DNA of 64,000 nt from an uncultured Ignisphaera sp. (GTDB taxonomy: Archaea > Thermoproteota > Thermoprotei_A > Sulfolobales > Ignisphaeraceae), in assembly GCA_938074605.1 (NCBI GenBank), contig CALJEI010000001.1:62001-126000 (forward strand). Reading direction: 5' to 3'. Under the pieces are notes generated by a model that saw only the letters and a list, made by a program, of their open reading frames with translations, was not told the DNA's origin and did no database searches. Positions within the stretch are counted from its first letter, which is position 1, and every line of letters begins with the position of its first letter. The position numbers and the translations under genes are program-made. Shown here in pieces: positions 1,090-25,173 of this stretch.

Positions 1090-2376
1090 TTACATTAAAC
1101 CATATAGAGACTTTGCATTTTCATTTAGTAATGCTTTTGCTATCTCAAGCGCCATTTCTCTATCTATGAATCCCTCTTCAATAAACTCCGCCAATATATA
1201 TGCCAGCTGACTTTTAGCTAATAATGCCTTCCCATAGACCCAGTCAGCTACATATGCATCACTAAAGAATCCCCCTATTTTATTATATGGAAGCATTTGA
1301 AGCCTTAAGCGAAGATATGACCTAATCAATTCTGGATACATAGAATACCACCAGTAACCACTTAGATAAACATTAGGGTAGTTCTTAGCTATAACTGTCA
1401 TTGGATGATTTAATAGTGCATCTGCTATAAATATGTCAAATTTTATGGTTGGGTATGCTGAGAAGAGTTTTGTTAAATTGATAATTTGTTCAGAATTAAA
1501 TAGTGTTATAGCGTAATCTGGTGGTGAAGCACCTGCTATAGGTCTTTTTACACCTAGCATAAGCTGAATAGCTATATTGTATTGTTCACAGAATTCAAGC
1601 ACAATTCTAAGAATATATGATGCAATGGCATTCCTGGCTAGAGGGTCTAGTATGCCATGTGACCTTAGAGTATTTAAGTATGTATTTACGGTGGTTTTAT
1701 CGCTTTTACTAACAGCTATGGAGATAAATTCGTCATCTGGCTGAACATTTATTGTGATAGCCACAATGCTTCCTACAAATCTCTTAAGGAGGACCATAAT
1801 TGCTTCTTCAAGTAGATTAGCATTTGTTATTTCTAACGATACTACCTCCTCCAGACGTTTAAGATTAAGCTGAGTTATATTAGGCAGTATTGGATCCACT
1901 CTTAGAGCTCCTGTAAATAACTCTCTATCATACTCTACATTTTTTTCAAGAGGATTTATTGTTAGAAAGGATTTCTCTACAGGAACCATATTTCTCAAAA
2001 TATATCTAGCCCACGTCTCATCACCCAACTTCTGCTTTACAACATTGATTAGCTCTTCTACATTATTTGGTTCTATACTCTTTAGTTCAAATCTATAGAG
2101 GTCTCTAAGTATAGACTTTAAACACCAAAAGGTAGAAGTATTTCTTATATACTTGATATAACTTGCTGCTACCTTTAGCCTATCAACACCTCTATATCTT
2201 TCGAGAAGCTCTTTAGGCATACCAGATGATACAAGCTCTGTTGCTATATAGTGGTAGAATACAATATCATCAATATTCTTAGCTGCAAGAGATAGTGGAT
2301 TTAGATGCTGATGTACATCGATAACCGGTATATCCTTTATTTCTTCAAATAACTCCCTATATAGAGTAGTCAACAA
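1090..2376 (-). CDS. Uronate (glucuronate) isomerase family protein, UxaC-like
   Basis: This 428-residue amidohydrolase-superfamily protein resembles UxaC, which converts D-glucuronate to D-fructuronate (and galacturonate to tagaturonate). The metal-binding HxH is at residues 22-24 (DVHQHLNP). The C-terminal metal aspartate is probably in FFSDAYVADW, followed by the helix-rich end typical of the family (ALLNENAKSLYGL). The length is slightly below the usual 450-470. The start is one of two adjacent TTG codons (2376 or 2373) preceded by GGTG. It lies between a GH2 hydrolase and a transaldolase-like protein on the same strand, which fits release of glucuronate followed by isomerisation. The family is fairly secure; the exact uronate is not. 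Confidence 0.72.
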   Translation of the reverse strand: MLTTLYRELFEEIKDIPVIDVHQHLNPLSLAAKNIDDIVFYHYIATELVSSGMPKELLERYRGVDRLKVAASYIKYIRNTSTFWCLKSILRDLYRFELKSIEPNNVEELINVVKQKLGDETWARYILRNMVPVEKSFLTINPLEKNVEYDRELFTGALRVDPILPNITQLNLKRLEEVVSLEITNANLLEEAIMVLLKRFVGSIVAITINVQPDDEFISIAVSKSDKTTVNTYLNTLRSHGILDPLARNAIASYILRIVLEFCEQYNIAIQLMLGVKRPIAGASPPDYAITLFNSEQIINLTKLFSAYPTIKFDIFIADALLNHPMTVIAKNYPNVYLSGYWWYSMYPELIRSYLRLRLQMLPYNKIGGFFSDAYVADWVYGKALLAKSQLAYILAEFIEEGFIDREMALEIAKALLNENAKSLYGLM

Positions 2377-2425
2377 GGAGTCACCATTAAAAGTAATATA
2401 GAGTAGAGATGTAGTATAAAACTAG

Positions 2426-4567
2426 TTATGGATGTGGTATCGTTTTTATAAGGCTTACAACCTTTGATCTAAATGCTACATACTCATTACTAAATTCATT
2501 CATCGTTTTTACACATGGACCGTATTTCGGCCAATCAACAGGACTCACACCTCTACCTCCATAGTCTCTATCTATGCCAACCTTTTTAAGAAGCTCATTT
2601 AGCTCTGGAGAGGATTCATAGGCCTTTACAAAATCCTCGTACTGCATCAATATCTCTAGGTATCGATTTTCTAGAGTTTGATATATAGACTCCCTAATCT
2701 CATTAAGCTCTATACCCTTCTCCATAACCTCCTTTACAACCTTTAGCTGATGGTCAGGAAATTCAGTATTTGTCATATTTCTAGAGGCAAATGTGTAAAG
2801 GGTATCAATCGGCTTTCTCTTAGATGCTGGTAGTAAGTCTATTCTATCTATTACTATTTCAGCCTGCTCTCGTGTAATACCTATCTCATTAATGAGATAG
2901 TTTATCCATTTTTCACGATTCCATGGAGAGAATAATATCTCATATACTCTCTGTGCTACAAAAGTTCCTGAAAGCTCTATAGCTTCTTCAAGCATCTTAA
3001 CATTTCTTAAAGTCTCCTCCCTAGAGCCATAGATGCCCAGCTCAGTTAAGGCATCTATATATGCATCTCTTACCATATTTCTACCAAGCACCCTATGACT
3101 ACATAGATGATCTACTGCTATTTCAAGACCCTTTCTCTTTATCTCATTCCATGCCTCCTCTTTTACCCCTAGACCCTTTGCTAGCTTATTTAGTACTAAC
3201 CATCTCTTATTTTCGTCTACCTTTTCTAATCCATTTAGAAGAAGTTTAGCTGCTATATCTTCTCTAAGGTGGTCCTCTAATCTACCACCCATGTTAGTAT
3301 CGTAGGTCTGTGTAGGTATAATCCCCTTTCTTATGGCCCTTGCCATACCTCTCATAGCAGCAACGCCTACTAGAACCTCTTGACTAACGGTATAGCTTAC
3401 TGTAATATTCTGACCTATACCCATTTCATTTATCTTTTCAGCAATTTCGATTGCCGCAGGATAGGCTGCTGCTACCTTTATAACAAGGTCAGGCCTCCCC
3501 TTCTCAGGAACATTATATCCCCACCAGAGATATTCATCATATATCGCTAAATCTCTCTCCAATCTAGTAACAAATATCTTTACAGCTTCAATACTTTTCT
3601 CAACATCGTGTGCAATTAGTGGGTTTAGCTGATAGCTCACTAAACCATCATGATATCTTGATAATATAAACGGCACTCTAAATACATAGAAGTTTTCTAG
3701 TAGAGCAAATCTTGTTGCCTCCATTGTTATATCGTCAGCATATTTCTCAGGATCCTTAAACCACTCTGGATGCTCCTTTACGAGCATTTCCTCTGCATAT
3801 TTCCTAAATTTATCCCACAACTCAGAATCATCATCATAAGCTCTAGCTGCTAAAACAGGATTTGTGGAAACTTGAACAAACCCTAGATGTCTTAAGAATC
3901 GTAGTCCAAGTGCATAATCGTTACCAAATTTACAGAGTTGTTGATCGTATGCTCTTCTATAGAAGTTATTCCTAATCTCACTTATCATTGCATCTATATA
4001 GCTTCTAGCACATCCTGGCCTAGATATCCTCTTCATAACCTCTTGTGCAATTTCTGCAACAAGACTTCTACCCTTATTAACCTTTATTAAATCCTTGAGC
4101 TGGAGCTCAATAACAGCCTCAATGATTAGTGGTTCACCTAGTTCTTTTCTTTCAATATCCTCCCACTCATCAAATGCATTCTTAATTGCTGTTACAGCTT
4201 GTTCAACCATATCTTGAGAAAAGCCTGCCCATCTACTTTCAGCACCAACTAAATTGAACACTATTTCAAACATAGTGTCATATAGTCTTGCCCTTTTAAT
4301 AATTTTCTCCTCGGCACTAAGACTACAATCTATTTTTTCACTTCTAATAATTAGACCTATCCTTCTAATAAGAGAACCAACAACATCCACCAGACAGCTA
4401 CCAACTTCTGGATGCATAAGATGATCTGCTGCAAGTTTTGTCCACCCCATTGAAGCTGTTTTAATTATATGATCAGCATGGTCTATACGTGGCTCCATTG
4501 GTAAAAAGAGATTTTCTACCCTTGCCCTTTTTAAAACATCTATTACACTTTCTTTTGTTAGCTTCAT
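2426..4567 (-). CDS. Large transaldolase-superfamily protein (possible ketose/ketouronate aldolase)
   Basis: This is a 713-residue protein with a transaldolase/fructose-6-phosphate-aldolase-like core. The family STNP motif is at residues 234-237 (LGFVQVSTNPVLA). The expected Schiff-base lysine is K364 (PDLVIKVAAAYPAA), followed by a segment like the family's NLTLLFS region (GIGQNITVSYTVSQEVL). Bacterial FSA has about 220 residues and TalB about 317, so here the core carries about 200 extra N-terminal and 250 C-terminal residues, largely helical. FSA-type enzymes use dihydroxyacetone as the free three-carbon unit, and a dihydroxyacetone kinase lies 7.5 kb away. The gene is 49 bases upstream of the uronate isomerase gene on the same strand, so co-transcription is likely. 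The superfamily is well supported; the substrate is inferred. Confidence 0.68.
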   Translation of the reverse strand: MKLTKESVIDVLKRARVENLFLPMEPRIDHADHIIKTASMGWTKLAADHLMHPEVGSCLVDVVGSLIRRIGLIIRSEKIDCSLSAEEKIIKRARLYDTMFEIVFNLVGAESRWAGFSQDMVEQAVTAIKNAFDEWEDIERKELGEPLIIEAVIELQLKDLIKVNKGRSLVAEIAQEVMKRISRPGCARSYIDAMISEIRNNFYRRAYDQQLCKFGNDYALGLRFLRHLGFVQVSTNPVLAARAYDDDSELWDKFRKYAEEMLVKEHPEWFKDPEKYADDITMEATRFALLENFYVFRVPFILSRYHDGLVSYQLNPLIAHDVEKSIEAVKIFVTRLERDLAIYDEYLWWGYNVPEKGRPDLVIKVAAAYPAAIEIAEKINEMGIGQNITVSYTVSQEVLVGVAAMRGMARAIRKGIIPTQTYDTNMGGRLEDHLREDIAAKLLLNGLEKVDENKRWLVLNKLAKGLGVKEEAWNEIKRKGLEIAVDHLCSHRVLGRNMVRDAYIDALTELGIYGSREETLRNVKMLEEAIELSGTFVAQRVYEILFSPWNREKWINYLINEIGITREQAEIVIDRIDLLPASKRKPIDTLYTFASRNMTNTEFPDHQLKVVKEVMEKGIELNEIRESIYQTLENRYLEILMQYEDFVKAYESSPELNELLKKVGIDRDYGGRGVSPVDWPKYGPCVKTMNEFSNEYVAFRSKVVSLIKTIPHP

Positions 4568-22608: not shown

Positions 22609-23286
22609 ATGCTTAATAGTCTAATTAATAAAGATAGAGTTGCCTTGATTTCACCATTTAAAAATTTTAATATTGTATTAGGTCTAAATATTGCTAATCT
22701 ACTATCACTATCAACACATAGAGAAGTTGCTATAGTAACACCATACAATATTTCTTCAAATCTAGTCAAGGAAATAATTAAAAATGATGAAAATGTTATT
22801 TTCTCTAACAATTTTAGGTGTTTAGACAAATTCTATGCATATATTATGATTTTCGATAGCATTGAGGCTCATACTTTACTACATTGCTTTTCAGATGTTG
22901 AAAAAGTTTTTGTATTGGTAGAAAAAATTCTACAAATCCATAAGCTAAAGAATAACACATGGCATATCCTCAGAGTTAAAAGAGTTGACTTAAATATGTA
23001 TAGTCTTCTAGATACACATAGAGGCACACCCATCATAGTGATCGTTAAAGGCTATTCTGTATACCAGTCAAAGATTCCAGATGATGTAATGCTTATATAT
23101 AGAGAAACTGTGAATCATTTAAAGGAATTTGGCTCTATAAAAGCTTCAACTCTACTTAAATATATGGTTAAAAGTTTGGGTTATGATAGAAATTTCATAT
23201 TAAATGCCATCAGAAAGTCTATTGCCATAGGCATTATCAAGTATCAATCCGGCTATTTAATACCAGCTACATCAATTAACAGTTAA
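22609..23286 (+). CDS. Hypothetical protein with possible C-terminal winged helix
   Basis: I do not recognise this 225-residue protein. The first 140 residues look like an alpha/beta domain with repeated hydrophobic strands (DRVALISPF, REVAIVTPYN, TPIIVIVKGY) but no P-loop or metal motif. The last 70 (NHLKEFGSIKASTLLKYMVK to GIIKYQSGYLIPAT) resemble a winged helix. The start is ATG 22609, with GAGGTAATGCT before it. It lies 57 bases ahead of the glmS-like gene, which has its own TATA box. A chromatin or regulatory role is only a guess. Confidence 0.6.
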   Translation: MLNSLINKDRVALISPFKNFNIVLGLNIANLLSLSTHREVAIVTPYNISSNLVKEIIKNDENVIFSNNFRCLDKFYAYIMIFDSIEAHTLLHCFSDVEKVFVLVEKILQIHKLKNNTWHILRVKRVDLNMYSLLDTHRGTPIIVIVKGYSVYQSKIPDDVMLIYRETVNHLKEFGSIKASTLLKYMVKSLGYDRNFILNAIRKSIAIGIIKYQSGYLIPATSINS

Positions 23287-23343: not shown

Positions 23344-25173
23344 ATGGGTGGAATTTTCGGTGCTATTTCTCGCAATGGACGTAATGTTATTGATATAGTG
23401 ATTCGTGGTGTTAAAGCTCTTGAGTATAGAGGTTTTGATGGTAGTGGACTAGCCATACCTGCTAATAGTGGAACTGTTAAAATATTTAAAGATGCTATAA
23501 AAATTGATGCTCTAACAGAAAAATATAGACTAGATGAACTAACCAGCTGGATTGCCCTAGGCCACACCAGATATGCTACACATGGAAAACCTCATATAGA
23601 GAATACCCAGCCTCATAGCGACTGTAATAACTATATTGCAGTTGTTGGAGATGGTGCTATTGCAAATTATGAGAAATTAAAGGATGAAGTAATATTTAAA
23701 GAACATAGGATTATCTCACGCTGCGATTTTGAAGTTGTTGCTCATTTACTTGAGGATGAGCTTAAAGATATATTCAATTTTCTAGATGCATTAATAAATG
23801 TAATAAAAAGAATTTCAGGATTTTATAGCCTTGCTATACTGGATTCTAGATGTAATTGCATTGCTGCATATACTTCATCAATGCCTTTCTTTTTAGGGGT
23901 TTCAGATAACTTATTTGTAGTTTCATCAGGTAAGGGCGCCCTATATGGTGTTACAGATAGATATGCTATGCTAGAGAAAAATGAAGTAGCAATAATTGCT
24001 AAGGATGGTATTAAAGTTTATAGTGTCTTGGATTCTAGGGAGGTGCAAAAAGATTTTAGGGAACTTGATGTAGATCCTAATTATGTTGATAAAGATGGTT
24101 ATCCTCATCATATGCTTAGAGAAATATACGAGATCCCCTACTCCCTTCTTAGAACACTATCATCTATACAAGAGAAATATTTAGCATTTGCAGCAAGACT
24201 TATTTCTGATGCTAAAAACCTCTTTATTATAGGTAATGGGACTAGCCTCCATGCAGGTTTAATAGCCTCCTACTACCTCTCTGAACTCGCTGGAGTAAAT
24301 TCAATTGTTGTAAGTGCTGCCGAATTTCCGCTATACTATGTAGATAATATCTCTCCAGGTACTGTTGTTATAGCTATTTCGCAGTCAGGTGAAACAAAAG
24401 ATGTTATACAATCTATTTTTGAAGCTAAAATTAGAGGTGCAACAATCATGGGTATAACAAATCGTATAGGGTCTAGACTTGCCAATCTATCTAATCTCTA
24501 CTTACCTGTAGCAGCAGGTCCTGAGATTGCTATCCCTGCTACAAAGACCTTTACATCAACACTAGCACTCCTCTATCTATTATCACTACGAGTTTCAAAT
24601 CATATTGGAAGAATACTTGAATCTGAGTATAGGGAGCGTATAGAGGGATTAAGATCTTTTAGCGAAATGCTGCTAAACAATATGCAGAAAATTGATGTAG
24701 AAGCATTAAAAGCTGCTGAATTTATAGTGGATTGTAAAAGTGGCTATATTACATCAAGAGGCATAACATATCCAATTGCTCTAGAGGGTGCTTTAAAGTT
24801 TAAGGAAACAGCTTACATTCATGCTGAAGGTGTAGAGACTGGTGAGTTTAGACATGGTCCACAATCCTTATTAGAAAAGGGGATATTCACAATATTCCTT
24901 ATGCCAGTTGAAAAACCAGCCATACCGTCTACCTATGAACTTATTCAGCTTGCTATTAACAGAGGTGCAAAAACTGTTGTCATAGGATTTGCTACAGAAC
25001 AATATTTAGATAGCCTACAGCAGACTACTGTAATCCGCGTCCCCTATTCTGAAAGACTTCTATCCCCTATAGCTATAACTATACCGCTTCAGTTTATGGC
25101 ATATAGACTAGGTGTGTTATTAGAGAGACCTATAGATACCCCAAGATACTTAACAAAGACCGTAGCCCATTAA
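23344..25173 (+). CDS. glmS: GlmS-type glucosamine-6-phosphate synthase homologue with degenerate glutaminase domain
   Basis: A full-length 609-residue GlmS architecture: an N-terminal class-II glutamine amidotransferase domain (1-about 230) and two SIS domains. The isomerase half is well conserved: SQSGETKDV, SYNQ-equivalent loops, the ALEGALKFKE segment, EFRHGPQSL (ring-opening/isomerase glutamate region) and the C-terminal DTPRYLTKTV with the active-site lysine. In the amidotransferase half the protein begins MGGIFG where the family has MCGI, so the catalytic Cys1 nucleophile is absent. The oxyanion-hole asparagine in the usual NG pair is aspartate (VVGDGAIAN, 100-108). HTRYATHG (74-81) and the aspartate of RCDFEVVAH remain. 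It may use free ammonia, depend on another ammonia source, or act as a sugar-phosphate isomerase or deaminase. Confidence 0.88.
   Translation: MGGIFGAISRNGRNVIDIVIRGVKALEYRGFDGSGLAIPANSGTVKIFKDAIKIDALTEKYRLDELTSWIALGHTRYATHGKPHIENTQPHSDCNNYIAVVGDGAIANYEKLKDEVIFKEHRIISRCDFEVVAHLLEDELKDIFNFLDALINVIKRISGFYSLAILDSRCNCIAAYTSSMPFFLGVSDNLFVVSSGKGALYGVTDRYAMLEKNEVAIIAKDGIKVYSVLDSREVQKDFRELDVDPNYVDKDGYPHHMLREIYEIPYSLLRTLSSIQEKYLAFAARLISDAKNLFIIGNGTSLHAGLIASYYLSELAGVNSIVVSAAEFPLYYVDNISPGTVVIAISQSGETKDVIQSIFEAKIRGATIMGITNRIGSRLANLSNLYLPVAAGPEIAIPATKTFTSTLALLYLLSLRVSNHIGRILESEYRERIEGLRSFSEMLLNNMQKIDVEALKAAEFIVDCKSGYITSRGITYPIALEGALKFKETAYIHAEGVETGEFRHGPQSLLEKGIFTIFLMPVEKPAIPSTYELIQLAINRGAKTVVIGFATEQYLDSLQQTTVIRVPYSERLLSPIAITIPLQFMAYRLGVLLERPIDTPRYLTKTVAH

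Follow-up and report, generated by a model that had tools for sequence, protein, structure and literature searches.

The gene at positions 23344 to 25173 of the window (the whole 64,000-nucleotide stretch of archaeal DNA analyzed here) raises the question of what a GlmS paralogue does when its glutaminase half lacks the catalytic cysteine. The ATG-started open reading frame lies on the plus strand, as do all features of the protein given below, and with its stop codon included in these coordinates it encodes 609 amino acids (MGGIFGAISRNG). The assignment was made from the reading frame together with family models. The protein scored 479.7 bits against the glmS model TIGR01135 (cut-off, 418.05 bits), with the GATase and SIS domains both matched. 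The model passes it and holds no requirement for the cysteine, and family models would still label such proteins as GlmS. The N terminus reads MGGIFG, and the preliminary description of this DNA was correct in stating that the nucleophile Cys1 is missing: codon 2 (GGT, 23347 to 23349), which aligns with it, encodes glycine. The protein and its relatives are referred to here as Cys-less GlmS.

That the missing cysteine is an artefact, arising from misread bases in codon 2 or from a wrongly placed start codon, is refuted. Genes for Cys-less GlmS were found 79 times among the 214 genomes of the order, one per genome, with another 14 in other classes of the phylum. Glycine occupies the second position in 79/79 and 14/14 of these independent relatives and is joined by a replacement of the oxyanion asparagine, which rules out the sequencing error that had been named as the condition for rejecting the observation. 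Furthermore, only three codons (GVN) precede the ATG in the open frame; therefore, an alternative start supplying a cysteine is ruled out as well.

The glutaminase-like domain (class II GATase, Ntn fold) covers approximately residues 1 to 234 (23344 to 24045) and, as previously proposed, is full length yet apparently dead as judged from its residues. With E. coli GlmS as the reference, Cys1 is replaced by Gly, Asn98 by Asp, and Trp74 by Tyr. The oxyanion replacement, likewise noted before, was located at Asp103 (23650 to 23652) within VVGDGAIAN, and Tyr77, which takes the place of Trp74, directly follows Arg76 (23569 to 23574 for the pair). The crenarchaeal alignment that the preliminary description had called for bears out the Cys-to-Gly change, as position 2 within the order is Gly in 79/79 Cys-less GlmS versus Cys in 41/41 canonical GlmS. 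The other two positions separate the groups in the same comparison, with Asp (78/79) or Glu (1/79) versus Asn (41/41) at position 103 and Tyr or Phe (79/79) versus Trp (41/41) at position 77. The glutamine-binding residues Arg76 (E. coli Arg73) and Asp128 (E. coli Asp123; 23725 to 23727) are kept and are invariant in both Cys-less (n = 79) and canonical (n = 41) GlmS. In E. coli GlmS, Trp74 and the C-tail couple the glutaminase and isomerase halves; these coupling residues are altered or relaxed in the Cys-less clade.

Purifying selection acts on the dead glutaminase domain (dN/dS of about 0.09). Based on few pairs and the NG86 method, its median dN/dS was 0.094 (range, 0.056 to 0.174; 23 close pairs), compared to 0.076 for the glutaminase part of canonical GlmS (16 pairs), and these values rule out a pseudogene. 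An AlphaFold2 model of the window protein (mean pLDDT, 92.9; pTM, 0.92) predicts that the domain is complete and folded. The best structural matches to the model were GlmS and GFAT, and its isomerase half aligned to solved isomerase domains with target TM scores of 0.85 to 0.91. The whole model superimposed on full-length GlmS in Foldseek with a TM score of about 0.55 (rmsd, 10 to 17 Å), which perhaps reflects a different domain orientation; as the model is single chain, no weight was given to this superposition.

The isomerase half, comprising two SIS domains, spans approximately residues 244 to 609 (24073 to 25170) and is intact, as had been described. In the alignment, K485, E488, and H504 lie in the catalytic stretch at 24796 to 24855, and K605 (25156 to 25158) corresponds to the Schiff base-forming Lys603 of E. 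coli; the SQSGET motif is also present. All four residues are invariant across the Cys-less clade wherever the position is covered. In addition, invariant changes specific to the clade are found close to the active site, with Ala398 replaced by Pro, Ala496 by Gly, and Tyr-Pro at positions 497 and 498 by x-Gln/Glu. Within the order, Pro398 (24535 to 24537) was present in 79/79 Cys-less GlmS versus Ala in 41/41 canonical GlmS. As synthases and deaminases share their catalytic residues, the direction of the reaction is not readable from the sequence. Position 503, which is Lys in synthases and mostly Arg or Leu in Cys-less GlmS and in isomerase-only proteins, is at most suggestive with respect to direction.

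In trees of the isomerase half, obtained by a quick search on that half only, all Cys-less GlmS formed one clade (SH-aLRT, 100 and 99) separate from canonical GlmS and from the isomerase-only proteins. The 14 members from other classes all carry the same Gly, Asp, and Pro, and the window protein shares a subclade with proteins of a family from another class (f38), a homologue from a NagA operon of that family being about 54% identical to it. Most simply, Cys1 and the oxyanion asparagine would have been lost once, anciently.

Genome context links the clade to amino-sugar catabolism. The gene most frequently associated with Cys-less GlmS encodes a NagA-like amidohydrolase (15 of 38 neighborhoods), and two example neighbors scored as NagA against TIGR00221. 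NagA, the GlcNAc-6-P deacetylase, was encoded within 1.5 kb of 23/79 Cys-less GlmS genes versus 0/40 canonical glmS genes. The two genes also co-occur. As raw counts that ignore kinship, 56 genomes encode both, 23 only Cys-less GlmS, 13 only NagA, and 122 neither (odds ratio, 23), and the corresponding numbers by genus, again raw and with kinship ignored, are 23, 3, 4, and 48 (odds ratio, 92). The 23 of 79 genomes with Cys-less GlmS but not NagA include three entire genera (g13, g35, and g54), and many genomes in the comparison are incomplete MAGs. In family f38, NagA immediately precedes Cys-less GlmS on the same strand in 6/6 genomes, the two being 0 to 10 nucleotides apart, and genes for PTS EI, HPr, EIIA, and EIIB, confirmed with Pfam on examples, are found near the pair. 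These PTS genes flank the NagA-Cys-less GlmS pair at loci L233 to L240, in archaeal genomes of that other class.

Other neighbors of Cys-less GlmS include AnmK, a beta-lactamase-family hydrolase, BadF-type kinases, SIS_2 proteins, and PIG-L. At three loci on archaeal contigs (L184, 4939 to 8096; L154, 11219 to 14326; L182, 2583 to 4930), genes of the anhydro-MurNAc kinase family (AnmK, PF03702) and the beta-lactamase family occur near Cys-less GlmS and NagA, and two of these loci also contain a SIS_2 gene. It is possible that such loci serve in the scavenging of peptidoglycan-derived sugars.

The distribution of alternative deaminases was also considered. Classical NagB (PF01182) was absent from 32/32 genomes tested, with detection in 9/14 controls, and the Glucosamine_iso domain of the same Pfam entry was not among the Pfam matches of the window protein. 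In genus g69, two genomes (G187 and G191) lack Cys-less GlmS and encode an isomerase-only double-SIS protein, while Cys-less GlmS is present in G188, G189, G190, G192, and G193. The isomerase-only gene of G191 is located between NagA and ABC-transporter genes, whereas the corresponding stretch of G188 lacks it and Cys-less GlmS is encoded elsewhere. Likewise, in family f2, G001, G002, G005, and G006 carry the isomerase-only protein and G003 and G004 carry Cys-less GlmS. In both groups the exchange looks like the displacement of one deaminase by another. Both proteins are missing from five NagA-positive genomes, and the displacement rule is therefore incomplete.

Taken together, we consider Cys-less GlmS to be a GlmS paralogue turned amino-sugar-phosphate deaminase, with a probability of roughly 0.7, the most likely reaction being GlcN-6-P + H2O → Fru-6-P + NH3. 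The isomerase half would thus act after NagA in N-acetylglucosamine breakdown, presumably in this direction and on this substrate. The suggestion of a different sugar-phosphate reaction, one of three put forward in the preliminary description, is supported by the recurring amino-sugar catabolism genes, which favor the deaminase direction. The loss of glutaminase activity would avoid spending glutamine on remaking the substrate of the deaminase, and the retained fold may serve in assembly or regulation. More speculatively, the rebuilt glutaminase fold (Gly1, Asp98, and Tyr74 in E. coli numbering, with Arg73 and Asp123 kept) could be an allosteric ligand-binding domain controlling an amino-sugar deaminase, for example one that responds to glutamine or some other amino acid as a signal of nitrogen status. 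This idea is tentative and may well prove wrong; if true, a biosynthetic glutamine amidotransferase would have become a nitrogen-regulated catabolic enzyme.

The window's own genome (1.63 Mb in 17 contigs, 97.8% complete) is less straightforward. A search for a second glmS, as had been proposed, found no canonical GlmS in this assembly, and the sole full-length match was the Cys-less gene itself. The link to NagA that characterizes the clade is present here at the genome level only, as two NagA genes are both encoded elsewhere (C9, 5186 to 6331; C1, 5 to 1105), and in most of the genus, too, Cys-less GlmS is not adjacent to NagA. At the window's locus, an open reading frame with no assigned function lies on one side of it and a dUTPase-like gene on the other, and this arrangement is conserved in the genus. 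The upstream frame (22609 to 23286, 225 amino acids) directly precedes the gene in several genomes of the genus and had no match in Pfam or NCBIfam. Canonical GlmS was also not found in a second genome (G111, 99% complete), and both genomes retain Arch_glmU and a PF00953 glycosyltransferase. For the window's genome, either GlcN-6-P is salvaged via NagA, or Cys-less GlmS also aminates Fru-6-P, or canonical GlmS falls in an assembly gap.

The genomes of the order include further cases of undetected glmS. In genus g19 (G041 to G045) and in G104, full-length GlmS of either kind was not found, some of these genomes being 99% complete, and G041, G044, and G104 retain the PF00953 glycosyltransferase. 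Two additional loci of the window's own genome are of note. At L082 (C2, 279000 to 282500), a PurF-like protein with an N-terminal Cys-to-Ser change (2305 to 3501; MSGLLTVY) directly follows canonical PurF (MCGIAG), and it adds to Cys-less GlmS another class II amidotransferase paralogue of this genome that lacks the nucleophile cysteine. At L079 (C7, 42000 to 48500), a BadF-type kinase, a GatZ/KbaZ-like aldolase, and an isomerase-only double-SIS protein are clustered. This cluster is plausibly a galactosamine branch of catabolism, and the isomerase-only protein is a candidate for another deaminase in this genome.

Among the alternatives to a deaminase, an ammonia-dependent GlcN-6-P synthase, in which the isomerase half aminates Fru-6-P and feeds UDP-GlcNAc synthesis, most notably where canonical GlmS is lacking, would fit the complete set of isomerase residues as well as the two genomes described above, which have Arch_glmU and the PF00953 glycosyltransferase and no detected canonical GlmS. 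We nevertheless regard it as unlikely. Approximately 72 of the 79 genomes of the order with Cys-less GlmS also encode canonical GlmS (counted by eye), so that ammonia-dependent synthesis, as suggested in the preliminary description, is unsupported as a general role. Canonical GlmS was missing from about 20 of 135 genomes without Cys-less GlmS and about 7 of 79 with it (also counted by eye); as the absence is at least as frequent without Cys-less GlmS, the protein is not read as a GlmS replacement. Moreover, the neighboring genes are catabolic, and salvage through NagA could also supply GlcN-6-P. For the window's own genome, with no canonical GlmS found, synthase function is the weaker reading, yet ammonia-dependent or reversible synthesis keeps some plausibility there.

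Slightly less probable still is another reaction of the SIS half, such as deamination or isomerization of another hexosamine-6-P, or a deglycase or epimerase reaction. The clade-specific changes at 398, 496, and 497 to 498 are consistent with an altered substrate or reaction, as are some loci that carry genes for an oxidoreductase, a TIM-barrel isomerase-like protein, AnmK, and SIS_2, but the most often linked gene encodes NagA, whose product is GlcN-6-P. That the protein is a regulatory pseudoenzyme binding canonical GlmS or another partner glutaminase would account for the retention of Arg76 and Asp128 in a dead domain conserved almost like a live one. This is improbable, as a pseudoenzyme does not need the invariant catalytic residues of the isomerase half and Cys-less GlmS occurs where canonical GlmS was not found. 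Furthermore, no glutaminase gene recurred beside Cys-less GlmS in the neighborhoods of its relatives, which also leaves the partner glutaminase of the preliminary description unsupported as a general role. Overall, the dead glutaminase, the intact isomerase, and the different reaction of that description have held up, while ammonia-dependent replacement of GlmS and the partner glutaminase have not done so as general roles.

If the deaminase assignment is true, a phylum-wide clade to which curated models would give the name of glutamine-dependent GlmS carries out the deaminase step of archaeal GlcNAc catabolism, and pathway reconstructions that credit such genomes, including that of the window, with GlcN-6-P synthesis would have the direction wrong. 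The clade would also be a clear example of a catalytic domain whose nucleophile disappeared a single time, far in the past, while the domain itself stayed under selection, and the new role of this domain is therefore testable on one heat-stable protein. Open papers on archaeal GlmS paralogues, on NagA and deaminases of Sulfolobales, and on glutaminase domains lacking the cysteine contained nothing on this family, and neither glucosamine nor chitin is mentioned in the genome paper on Sulfolobus sp. A20. We also considered whether Cys-less GlmS is the same protein as the S. tokodaii GlcN-6-P 4-epimerase ST2245 and found nothing in the open literature on such an identity.

In comparison with known systems, Cys-less GlmS shares the full-length two-part architecture and all isomerase residues with GlmS/GFAT (glutamine--fructose-6-phosphate transaminase, isomerizing; TIGR01135). 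It differs in the clade-wide replacement of Cys1, the oxyanion Asn98, and the gate Trp74 and in its relaxed C-tail coupling. With classical NagB (PF01182), it would have in common the proposed reaction, the next step after NagA, although the two belong to different protein families. The closest functional parallels would be NagB-II (NF046059), GlmD (NF041128), and AgaS, a double-SIS protein for which a role as GalN-6-P deaminase has been proposed from E. coli knockouts (PMC3668189). Cys-less GlmS has the same double-SIS catalytic half as these proteins and is proposed to catalyze their reaction at the equivalent pathway step. The window protein scored well below the respective cut-offs of the NagB-II (114.5 versus 430 bits) and GlmD (60.7 versus 580 bits) models. 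Judging from its genome context, Cys-less GlmS would be a new variant among the GlmS-derived deaminases: while NagB-II, GlmD, and AgaS have no glutaminase domain, it keeps a complete, dead one and is placed nearer to GlmS in the trees.
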